NCBI GenBank assembly: GCA_937900875.1
Contig: CALCGD010000239.1
Span: 1-32,924 of the forward strand
From: an uncultured Flavobacteriales bacterium
GTDB lineage: Bacteria; Bacteroidota; Bacteroidia; UBA10329
Direction: 5' to 3'
DNA: 32,924 nt
Part shown: piece by piece, positions 29,745 through 32,529 of the stretch
Numbering within the stretch: position 1 is the stretch's first letter
How the letters are laid out: every line of letters begins with the position of its first letter
Translations under genes and position numbers: made by a program
Notes under the pieces: generated by a model
Databases searched by the model: none
Told to the model about the DNA's origin: nothing
What the model saw: the letters and a program-made list of their open reading frames with translations, nothing else

Positions 29745-29819
29745 GGCCCGTTCGTCTAGGGGTTAGGACGCCAGGTTTTCATCCTGGTAACAGGGGTTCG
29801 ATTCCCCTACGGGCTACCA
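29745..29819 (+). tRNA. tRNA-Glu (anticodon UUC), CCA encoded
   Basis: The sequence folds as a 72-nt cloverleaf plus an encoded CCA (29817-29819). The acceptor arm is GGCCCGT with ACGGGCT, with a G-T pair at the first position. The anticodon stem CCAGG/CCTGG encloses the loop TTTTCAT, giving anticodon TTC. The T arm GGGG-TTCGATT-CCCC is standard. The gene appears intact, so whatever integrated next to it has left or restored a complete tRNA. Its 3' third is read antisense by the recombinase frame described separately. Confidence 0.95.
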
Positions 29820-31329
29820 AACGGGAAACATCCAATTTATCATGGAGTTTCCCGTTTTTATTTTCTCTGAAACCCTTATCAGCATTGAGACACAGCAAAA
29901 CAGCCTCGTTGATTTTGGGGGTTCGACATTTGTTTCCGTCAAATTCGATCATTTCGGGGAAAATCGAACCAAGAATTTTCACTTTCGTGCTTGCGTCCGC
30001 GTTCGAATAGACGGTTCCCAAGCTATCAACGCCCTTCACGGCTTTATGTAACAATTCCTCTTTTCCCGAATTGTCTTCCTGCAATGAAAGCAGCTGTTCT
30101 TGTGCAGTTCGTTTCGAACTTGCAAACCTTGTTTTCATAGACACGAAATCTTCCGATGAGAGTATGCCGTCTGCCAAATTATCTTGTAGCCTTTGAATTC
30201 GTTCCTCCTGCTTATCGATTTCGGCCTGAAGCTTTTTCCGTTTCGTGGCCTTATCCCGATTGTCGCCATTCAGCAAGCGCTTCACCAATTCTTCGTGCAC
30301 AACTTTACACGACCTGCTGAGTTTGATTCCTCCAATAACCTCTGCCAGAGTCTCATTCACCGCTTCTGCTCTGTACCGCTCGTTCCCACAATTATTGCAG
30401 TGATAGTAGGCGTATCGAGTTCCTCTTCTTCCTCTTGAACGACTCCCAGTTAATCTATATCCGCATTCAGAACAAGACAGGATTCCTCTTAGAGGAAGTA
30501 GGTCATTTTTAACGGATGATGGAATTCTATCGCATGGATTGTTGGCCGACAATGCTTGTTGCACCTGATAGAACAGTTTATCGCTTATTAGTGCTTCATG
30601 CTCACCTTCCACTATTTGATAGGGCTCATTTTCAAGGGCTGGAACTTGAATCTTTCCCGCATATACTGGGTTTCTGAGAATGAGAGATAGCTGACTCTTA
30701 CTGATTGGTGTTCCTTTCTCTTTGAAAGCGACAAGAACTTCTGACTGTTGGGTGCCTTTGGCCACTTGACGATAAGCCTCTCGTATTGGTTCTGCATACT
30801 CATTCGGAACTATAATTGGCCGATTGTTCTCGTCTCGAGAGTTACGGTACCCGTATGGAGCTTTCCTGCACCACCGCCCTGCCTTCAACGCTGCTCTCAT
30901 GCCCTCTTTCACCTTCATGGACCTCCGGTCATTGTCTATCTCTGGCATGACCAGATACATTGCCAAAAGCATCTTATTCTCCGGCACGGTCAGGTCTATC
31001 GGCTGCTCAATGGAATTGGCAGTGACTCCATGTCTCTTTAGGGTGTCTATCATGTGATAGGCGTCCTTAGCGTTTCTGGAAAACCTATCCCAAGTCGTGA
31101 ATAGCAATAGATCTATAGCGTTCTTGTTTCGTTTCAAATGCTCCAGAAACTCCTTGAAGCTAGGCCTGTCAAAATTCTTGGCAGAATGGTCTTCTCTGAA
31201 TGAGTAGACGATTTCTATATCGTTTCGATGACAGTAGTTCTCCAGTGCTTCGGACTGTATATCCAGACTATATCCTTTGGCCTGTTCATCACTTGACACT
31301 CGAGACATCAATGCAGCTCGTCTTCTCAT
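29779..31329 (-). CDS. large serine recombinase (integrase-like)
   Basis: A 516-residue site-specific recombinase. The N-terminal resolvase-type catalytic domain starts MRRRAALMSRVSSDEQAKGYSLDIQ, with nucleophile Ser most likely at 12 (the R-V-S of the family pattern) and DRFSR at 81-85. A Recombinase domain follows (about 150-265, with APYGYR and LSLILRNPVYAGKI), then a zinc ribbon with CSEC at 286-289 and CNNC at 311-314. A charged coiled coil spans about 350-410 (KKLQAEIDKQEERIQRLQDNL). The final residues (SRLVARRGIEPLLPG) are antisense translation of the 3' part of tRNA-Glu, and the preceding ones of its terminator. The native end of the protein is therefore uncertain. Such enzymes integrate and excise phages, integrative elements or cassettes. 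Confidence 0.9.
   Translation of the reverse strand: MRRRAALMSRVSSDEQAKGYSLDIQSEALENYCHRNDIEIVYSFREDHSAKNFDRPSFKEFLEHLKRNKNAIDLLLFTTWDRFSRNAKDAYHMIDTLKRHGVTANSIEQPIDLTVPENKMLLAMYLVMPEIDNDRRSMKVKEGMRAALKAGRWCRKAPYGYRNSRDENNRPIIVPNEYAEPIREAYRQVAKGTQQSEVLVAFKEKGTPISKSQLSLILRNPVYAGKIQVPALENEPYQIVEGEHEALISDKLFYQVQQALSANNPCDRIPSSVKNDLLPLRGILSCSECGYRLTGSRSRGRRGTRYAYYHCNNCGNERYRAEAVNETLAEVIGGIKLSRSCKVVHEELVKRLLNGDNRDKATKRKKLQAEIDKQEERIQRLQDNLADGILSSEDFVSMKTRFASSKRTAQEQLLSLQEDNSGKEELLHKAVKGVDSLGTVYSNADASTKVKILGSIFPEMIEFDGNKCRTPKINEAVLLCLNADKGFRENKNGKLHDKLDVSRLVARRGIEPLLPG
29819..29860 (+). terminator. terminator after tRNA-Glu
   Basis: AACGGGAAAC (29820-29829) pairs perfectly with GTTTCCCGTT (29847-29856) around a 17-base loop and is followed by a T-rich run. 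It begins at the CCA end of the tRNA and fits a rho-independent terminator. It lies within the antisense recombinase frame. Whether it belongs to the host or was supplied in part by the inserted element is not known. Confidence 0.65.
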
Positions 31330-31465
31330 CTTCTTCTGTTGTTAATTGTTCAACAATAAGCTGAGCTAATTCCGTTTGGAACGCCAGCATTGATTCTAAT
31401 TCTTGTTCTGTGTACTTCTTATAATTTTCTCCAAATAGTTCTTTGTACTCTTTTAGCGTTAGCAT
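31289..31465 (-). CDS. 58-residue ORF overlapping the recombinase start
   Basis: An open frame from the ATG at 31465 to the TGA at 31289, read in a different frame from the recombinase and overlapping its first 41 bases. The product starts MLTLKEYKELFGENYKKYTE and continues QELESMLAFQTELAQLIVEQ, then an acidic tail ending SSVK. It is a helical, acidic small protein with no signal or membrane segment. I think similar small ORFs precede Bacteroidota serine recombinases, but that is from memory. Translational coupling into the recombinase is plausible. No good ribosome-binding site is visible, as is usual in this phylum. Confidence 0.55.
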   Translation of the reverse strand: MLTLKEYKELFGENYKKYTEQELESMLAFQTELAQLIVEQLTTEEDEKTSCIDVSSVK

Positions 31466-31543: not shown

Positions 31544-32500
31544 TCATTTCAGTTTCAGTTTTCGTGTGTTTTCGCAACGGACGATATTTCCATTTTCGGT
31601 CTTTACGGTTATGTCCTGATAGCCGTTGGTCAGCAACAGTTCCATCAACCGGGCGCGTTTGCTAACTTTTTCAGCTTTGGTGACTTCCAAAAAATCCATG
31701 TTATTTTTTCGATCAAACCGTATCATGACCGAAGCCAAATCGTTCTCTCTTAGAGCCTCCAATACCAGTGCCTCTTTTTCTGTTACCAGATGTAGTTTTT
31801 CAGAGACCTTTTGAATCGGGGCCAACGTAAGAACCCGTGCTAAAAGTTCGGTTATACTGATACTGACATGTGTCTTTTCCATCAGATCGGACAGAAAGTC
31901 ATTGGCCAGTGGCGTATCAAAGAAGATGGGGCTGTAGATCAATCCCGTTTCTTTGGTATCTATTACATAGGATACCGGCTGCTTGGTTACCAGCGCTATT
32001 AGTATCAGGACACCGAGGAGATTCATGCTGGTTGTGGCCTTACCAAAAGTTGCGACCACTTCCTTTCTGATCTTTGGGTCCGCCAATGCGGCTTCAAACT
32101 TGGCTCGATGTTCCTCACCATGCTTTTCGATTATCTGATCCATCAGACTGTCATAGTCCATTACCTCGGTTACGTCTATCCCCACAGGAATCGCCAACTC
32201 ATCCTTGATCTTCTTTATGGATGTAAAGGAAAAATTGTATTGGCGCAACTTTTCGATCATCTTAATCCACAGAAACTCCGATGCACTTAGGCGATGGTGT
32301 TTACGCGCAACCCTTGGCGAAAGCAGTAATCCTTCCCTGTTCCAGTCCGCTACTAGGTTCGGATGAACTTCGGTTTCAACCACCGTGAATGGTTTCTCAT
32401 TCATTGCAGCCATCAACTCAGGATACTGTTCGGATATACTCTTCGTATATTTAGTTAACCATTTCTCGTTAAGTGCTTCCTGTTGTTTTGAGTGGTTCAT
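31544..32500 (-). CDS. regulator-like protein with MerR-type N-terminal helix-turn-helix
   Basis: A 318-residue protein with no family I can name as a whole. Residues about 38-101 match the MerR winged-helix pattern: PNLVADWNREGLLLSPRVAR, then RLSASEFLWIKMIEKLRQ and YNFSFTSIKKIKDEL. Downstream are a helical linker, a hydrophobic stretch (MNLLGVLILIALVTKQPVSY, about 159-178) that is more like a buried core than a membrane anchor, and a C-terminal helical domain. The last 70 residues (SVMIRFDRKNNMDFLEV and KTENGNIVRCENTRKLKLK) are strand-rich and basic. I chose the ATG at 32500; an in-frame TTG at 32524 would fall inside the -7 box. It lies upstream of the recombinase on the same strand, 78 bp before the small ORF. 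Confidence 0.75.
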   Translation of the reverse strand: MNHSKQQEALNEKWLTKYTKSISEQYPELMAAMNEKPFTVVETEVHPNLVADWNREGLLLSPRVARKHHRLSASEFLWIKMIEKLRQYNFSFTSIKKIKDELAIPVGIDVTEVMDYDSLMDQIIEKHGEEHRAKFEAALADPKIRKEVVATFGKATTSMNLLGVLILIALVTKQPVSYVIDTKETGLIYSPIFFDTPLANDFLSDLMEKTHVSISITELLARVLTLAPIQKVSEKLHLVTEKEALVLEALRENDLASVMIRFDRKNNMDFLEVTKAEKVSKRARLMELLLTNGYQDITVKTENGNIVRCENTRKLKLK

Positions 32501-32521
32501 TATGCCTGGATTTGCTCGATA

Positions 32522-32529
32522 CAAATATA
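32522..32529 (-). promoter_or_regulatory. -7 box of the MerR-like gene
   Basis: TATATTTG on the minus strand matches the Bacteroidota TAnnTTTG consensus and ends 21 bp before the ATG at 32500. A TTTG lies 28 bp farther upstream inside the palindrome at 32555-32570, which is longer than the usual spacing. Confidence 0.5.

Follow-up and report, generated by a model that had tools for sequence, protein, structure and literature searches.

Results

A Recombinase Gene That Ends inside a tRNA Gene

In the window, i.e., the whole 32,924-nucleotide stretch of DNA that we analyzed, a serine recombinase of 516 amino acids is encoded by a minus-strand open reading frame (ORF; 29779–31329) that crosses the terminator hairpin of a tRNA-Glu(TTC) gene (approximately 29820–29857) and stops, in antisense, inside the tRNA itself (29745–29819, plus strand). 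The stop codon TGA (29779–29781) falls on top of the anticodon, and the protein ends in ...KNGKLHDKLDVSRLVARRGIEPLLPG; the C terminus is thus antisense to the tRNA and its terminator, just as the initial annotation had it. As there is no in-frame stop before the tRNA, the full-length recombinase, if made, includes the tail. The protein contains Resolvase (PF00239), Recombinase (PF07508), and zinc-ribbon (PF13408) domains, all above the Pfam cut-off, and its relatives in the PDB include the A118 integrase. Matches to NCBIfam were sub-threshold only, the best being XisF and CcrB, and an AlphaFold2 model based on a three-sequence alignment had a mean pLDDT of 46.7, too low for use.

Upstream, most homologs with a tRNA tail have a small ORF (approximate consensus LSLxECKKILxxxGxxYTDEEIxxIRDFLYxLAxI) that overlaps the start of the recombinase or lies directly against it and is a candidate partner or directionality factor. 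A MerR-type regulator-like protein (31544–32524, minus strand) adjoins the recombinase and is possibly another gene of the element. The features of the locus are collected in Table 1.

Table 1. Features around the tRNA-Glu gene of the window
Feature	Position	Strand	Basis
tRNA-Glu(TTC), integration target	29745..29819	+	ARAGORN; sequence
tRNA-Glu landmarks	T-loop TTCGA 29797-29801; positions 71/72 at 29814/29815; C74 at 29817	+	Sequence
Host-coded recombinase end: 11 residues after Val505, ARRGIEPLLPG (29782-29814), plus stop TGA (29779-29781)	29779..29814	-	Tails track tRNA, not recombinase
Val505 codon GTA at the deduced crossover (antisense of tRNA positions 74-72); last codon common to host and element	29815..29817	-	
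Intrinsic terminator for the tRNA, element-borne (hairpin 29820-29857 and T-tract)	29820..29864	+	Empty sites have other terminators
Same stretch as right arm of the deduced attP (with conserved GGA, 29824-29826) and, in antisense, as codons of the recombinase	29820..29864		
Element-coded part of large serine recombinase (Resolvase, Recombinase, zinc-ribbon domains)	29815..31329	-	Pfam; PDB relatives
Gene-internal inverted repeat GTTCGA (29921-29926) ... TCGAACC (29964-29970)	29921..29970		Codon choice, base profile
Conserved small ORF (MLTLKEYKELFGENYKKYTEQELESMLAFQTELAQLIVEQL...) overlapping the recombinase start	31289..31465, approximate	-	Similar ORF upstream of most homologs

Antisense-tRNA Tails Are a Family Trait

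Two paralogs in the same genome (64% and 56% identical) lie on contigs that start inside tRNA-Ala(GGC) and tRNA-Pro(GGG), fragments that we identified by reading the sequence, and their tails are ...SGWVENTGVEPVTSTLPV and ...STLVGASGFEPPLSRPPDAHF, respectively. Relatives within the genus were located at tRNA-Val, -Arg, -Ala, and -Glu. In a class-level sample, homologs at E ≤ 1e-70 were present in 60 of 395 genomes; 69 loci were read and, with the outgroup proteins L103 and L112 set aside, 67 family members were counted. About 63 of the 67 end against the 3′ end of a tRNA or tmRNA gene, a few of them being degenerate or truncated where the contig ends. The targets cover Glu, Ala, Pro, Val, Arg (four isoacceptors), Phe, Ser, Lys (two), Leu (two), Asn, and Met, approximately 17 isoacceptors overall, as well as eight tmRNA genes. 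One frame is used throughout this sample, such that the T-loop is read in antisense as G[FIVL]EP. Most members of a second, phylum-wide sample, other classes included, likewise end in antisense tRNA, one divergent member (L195) using another frame. The antisense-tRNA end is a family trait, far above chance, and the initial statement that many Bacteroidota serine recombinases have such tails holds in both samples.

Among family members at non-tRNA or degenerate sites (L012 and L013) and those in tandem arrays (L059 and L083; see below), no homolog was found that shares the final 25 residues without adjoining a tRNA gene, the observation that would have spoken against a site-dependent tail; all four end differently. 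L012 and L013 are close family members, and in L013 the combination of TTCCA at 21 nt and a strong inverted repeat may represent a cryptic attB. The recombinase of L104 stops ahead of the crossover. A second serine recombinase in L084 proved not to be a family member; it belongs to another subfamily and has no tRNA tail. At L131 and L169, arrays of pseudo-tRNA fragments lie downstream of tRNA-Met and are possibly scars of earlier integrations. No close relatives were found in phage genomes, where 50,697 records gave matches of 24–27% only, in plasmids, or, by pattern search, in viral contigs; none of these sources yielded a homolog with a usable natural attP.

Attachment Sites and the Element Boundary

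At empty orthologous tRNA-Glu sites in the genus, different terminators lie directly 3′ of the tRNA, so the hairpin that follows the window's tRNA belongs to the element; the hairpin region travels together with the recombinase. Among aligned homologs, 61 of 66 have valine at position 505. Both ends of an element could be examined in G106, whose sequence flanking the tRNA agrees with that of empty sites in relatives. On the tRNA side we read GGTTCGAGTCCTGTTCCCGCTAC/TAATTGGGACAAAG and at the far end, 18.3 kb off, GATTCGAAAATTGTCCCGTTGGGGCTAC/TAAAAAC, after which comes a terminator similar to the one at the empty site. When the ends of the element are joined, the result is TTGTCCC GTTGGGGCTACTAATT GGGACAA, an inverted repeat centered between tRNA positions 71 and 72. 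The attP of five elements, deduced in the same way by joining two element ends and not read from a circular junction, has a GTCCC/GGGAC inverted repeat with its center at tRNA positions 71/72. From these palindromes of other elements we infer that the crossover of the window is likewise centered at approximately tRNA positions 71/72, together with its exact cut position. The crossover would thereby fall at the Val505 codon, in agreement with the initial proposal that integration places the 3′ end of the gene at the attachment site. A further part of that proposal, that roughly the last 25 codons depend on the site, stands for the 11 residues after Val505 and fails for the residues encoded by the terminator, which is element-borne, as empty sites differ.

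The far ends share with the tRNA side only the core and TTCGA, and a search covering as much as 18 kb of the element interior at the tested loci detected no displaced copy of the tRNA 3′ part (a long direct repeat). In G001 the far end (attR) lies upstream of icd, where the empty site of G006 has the tRNA. For the element in the window itself, the assembly lacks the far end, which could not be mapped via icd because icd does not adjoin the site in G000 or G005.

A Five-Base Shift of the T-Loop Motif

In the tRNAs, TTCGA starts 21 nt before C74; in the far halves (attP), it starts 26 nt before the corresponding position. In 1.1 Mb of element interior, we looked for far ends combining TTCGA with the element's own palindrome arm and its own tRNA end, trying 13 spacings. 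Five matches were at spacing 26 and one at spacing 24, the latter without a terminator after it, and the 11 other spacings gave none. The five matches at spacing 26 come from G301 (134.6-kb element), G368 (38.8 kb), G106 (18.3 kb), G178 (16.4 kb), and G165 (8.1 kb), and all of them directly precede an intrinsic terminator. The far end in G165 is backed by synteny, as G453 and G454 have the same flanks around another island at the same tRNA-Phe. Far ends are few, five by scan plus G001, with those of G301, G178, and G368 identified by the pattern and the terminator alone.

For large serine integrases, Rutherford et al. 2013 (PMC3783163) placed the zinc-domain motif at half-site positions 16–24 in attP and 5 bp closer to the center in attB. 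TTCGA occupies half-site positions 19–23 in attP and 14–18 in the tRNA, which fits their scheme. Because the geometry matches this 5-bp offset, we regard the T-loop as the motif of the zinc domain: the universal TTCGA is likely to be the recognition motif of the family, and the zinc domain would be what contacts it.

A Tail Written by the Abutting DNA

As the recombinase gene spans the insertion point, its last residues are spelled by the antisense of the host tRNA and would be rewritten at each insertion. Over the first nine residues of the tail, identity is 40% between recombinases that are >60% identical and located at different tRNAs, against a background of 39% for different tRNAs, and 56% between those that are <40% identical and located at the same tRNA. 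On these comparisons the tail tracks the tRNA, not the recombinase, and the earlier claim of a protein end that varies with the site of integration is upheld. The host-coded tail varies in length from 11 to >100 residues.

Reading the gene into the deduced attP gives the tails VAHTGQISN, VEKSGQNSN, VEDTGQKSN, VALTGQISN, and VAPTGQFSN, with the common pattern V..[TSK]GQ.SN; the excised form would thus presumably end in V..TGQ.SN. Two tandem arrays provide natural counterparts. In G115, tRNA-Arg is occupied by an element whose recombinase is 27% identical; 53 kb further along, the far half-site of this element abuts a second recombinase, L083, with the tail VAPRVENSNLLL...; the other array, on contig C183 of G038, contains L059. 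In both, the recombinase reads into a far half-site resembling the deduced excised junction.

In the alignment of tRNA-tail proteins there are no indels between the RT motif (Arg469) and Val505, and the last dozen element-coded residues vary widely despite this. The 12 codons before Val505 are free of stops in 58 of 58 correctly located members (L104 lies outside this set), and the other two frames contain stops in 15 and 44 of 60, respectively. Two seeming stops, in L088 and L098, turned out to be due to mislocated T-loops. The open frame is therefore kept up to the crossover, from which the usefulness of the host-coded part does not follow; by default, we read the change of tail as merely tolerated.

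Terminator and Gene-Internal Repeat

The 60 nt that come after C74 have a median folding energy of −20.4 kcal/mol in 57 representatives, nearly all of which show a T-tract behind the fold. The first arm of the hairpin has a conserved GGA located 10–12 bp from the crossover center, within the attP arm, so that a single stretch encodes recombinase residues, terminates the tRNA, and forms an arm of attP. Further inside the gene, the codon for Arg469 is CGA in 63 of 64 arginines, compared with 13% elsewhere, and that for Ser455 is TCG in 52 of 59. Through these choices of codon, the GTTCGA...TCGAACC pair is kept at the DNA level. The pair spans 47 bp from TTCGA to TCGAA, nearly twice an attP half-site, and lies ~131 bp from the crossover; the distance from the T-loop to the internal motif is 125 bp in most loci and 130 bp at the two tandem junctions. 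We take the repeat as a further, putative recombinase site. The far half-site of G001 has GGTTCGACATTTGT in common with the window's gene-internal site.

Discussion

We consider it highly probable that the window holds the attL of an element with a Bacteroidota-wide large serine recombinase that is guided by the T-loop and has its tail written by the abutting DNA. Under this model, nearly every tRNA or tmRNA gene would offer the family a target at its 3′ end, with the zinc domain reading the universal TTCGA and crossover taking place at approximately tRNA positions 71/72. The element would provide the bases past the crossover and a replacement terminator built from the attP right arm. The recombinase gene, convergent with the tRNA and without a stop of its own, would span the crossover, and its last residues would come from antisense tRNA in the integrated state and, in the excised or tandem state, from the half-site at the far end of the element. 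The attL/attB/attR structure, the match between tail and tRNA, the 5-bp spacing difference, the replacement of the terminator, and the codon-level motif can all be seen by comparing sequences.

The tail would instead stay constant on movement if the element carried the 3′ part of the tRNA along with the terminator, as islands of tyrosine integrases carry a tRNA fragment, and the elements here do carry their own terminator. We nevertheless regard this as very unlikely: the displaced copy of the tRNA 3′ part was not found in the element interior, the far ends have only a T-loop-like motif at a different spacing, and tails match the local tRNA even across distant recombinases. Mere coincidence, with the true protein ending earlier or the gene silent, is harder still to credit. 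The hairpin could end the recombinase transcript ahead of the stop codon, but on the recombinase strand it is followed by only a short T-run, no earlier in-frame stop exists, and the frame is open to the crossover in every located member, compared with stops in 15 and 44 of 60 in the other frames.

A different question is whether the tail acts as a state switch, with integrated and excised recombinase differing in activity, directionality, or stability. The deduced excised tails share V..[TSK]GQ.SN and the integrated ones G[FIVL]EP, and there are precedents in the Mx8 integrase, whose new 3′ end goes with altered specificity (PMC6070905), and in the BPs repressor, whose stability changes with integration (PMC4557955). 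Yet both motifs follow from constraints on the DNA (the T-loop, the attP arm, and the 5-bp shift), so their conservation alone is no evidence of protein function, and the remaining host tail, 11 to >100 residues, is whatever the tRNA gives. We thus think a switch unlikely. A more elaborate version, in which the recombinase senses integration via its C terminus, with G[FIVL]EP marking the integrated enzyme and V..TGQ.SN the excised one, and the internal TTCGA pair is a third recombinase-binding site regulating expression or synapsis, is a slightly longer shot; if true, the enzyme would be an integrase that reports on itself and whose tRNA address is universal.

Integrase genes lying across attP (Mx8, SSV) and integration-dependent C termini (BPs) are already known. 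The recombinase resembles large serine integrases of the A118/LI, phiC31, and Bxb1 type in its domain order, in an attP inverted repeat around a central core, and in the probable zinc-domain motif, here TTCGA, being shifted by 5 bp between attP and attB; it differs from them in its tRNA and tmRNA targets, in the gene lying across attP, in the gene-internal motif, and in not being found as a phage gene. The integrase of the Myxococcus phage Mx8 is a tyrosine integrase. It shares with our case an attP within the integrase gene and a new 3′ end upon integration, but Mx8 uses two neighboring sites (PMC6070905), whereas here a serine recombinase has many targets. The suicidal integrases of the SSV type in archaea also have attP in the integrase gene and target tRNAs, but are tyrosine enzymes whose gene is split in two by integration, whereas here only the tail is exchanged. 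By its sequence features, our gene would work like the Mx8 and SSV arrangements without being a relative. The tDNA islands of tyrosine integrases (Islander) similarly occupy tRNA and tmRNA genes at their 3′ end, but carry a tRNA fragment, restore the tRNA, and depend on another class of enzyme; the serine recombinase domains and the lack of a displaced tRNA repeat in the interior searched speak against an island of this type. In the integration-dependent immunity of mycobacteriophage BPs, attP again lies in a gene whose C terminus depends on integration, but that gene encodes a repressor with a shown degradation tag (PMC4557955), whereas a role for the recombinase tail is putative.

Our literature search, partial in its coverage, found no report of tRNA-targeting serine recombinases in Bacteroidota, and a survey of large serine recombinases by Durrant et al. 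2022 (PMC10083194) makes no mention of tRNA in its main text. The present finding would extend the enzymes targeting tRNA genes to serine integrases. Such targeting has long been assumed to be exclusive to tyrosine integrases. Recognition of the invariant T-loop would explain how one family uses nearly any tRNA or tmRNA gene, and the system offers a natural test of the 5-bp zinc-domain rule. Comparison of tails with the adjacent tRNAs gives a marker for mapping such islands across Bacteroidota, and the finding would account for the puzzling antisense-tRNA protein ends in databases. Finally, the arrangement turns the idea of an integrase reporting its own integration state into a testable question.
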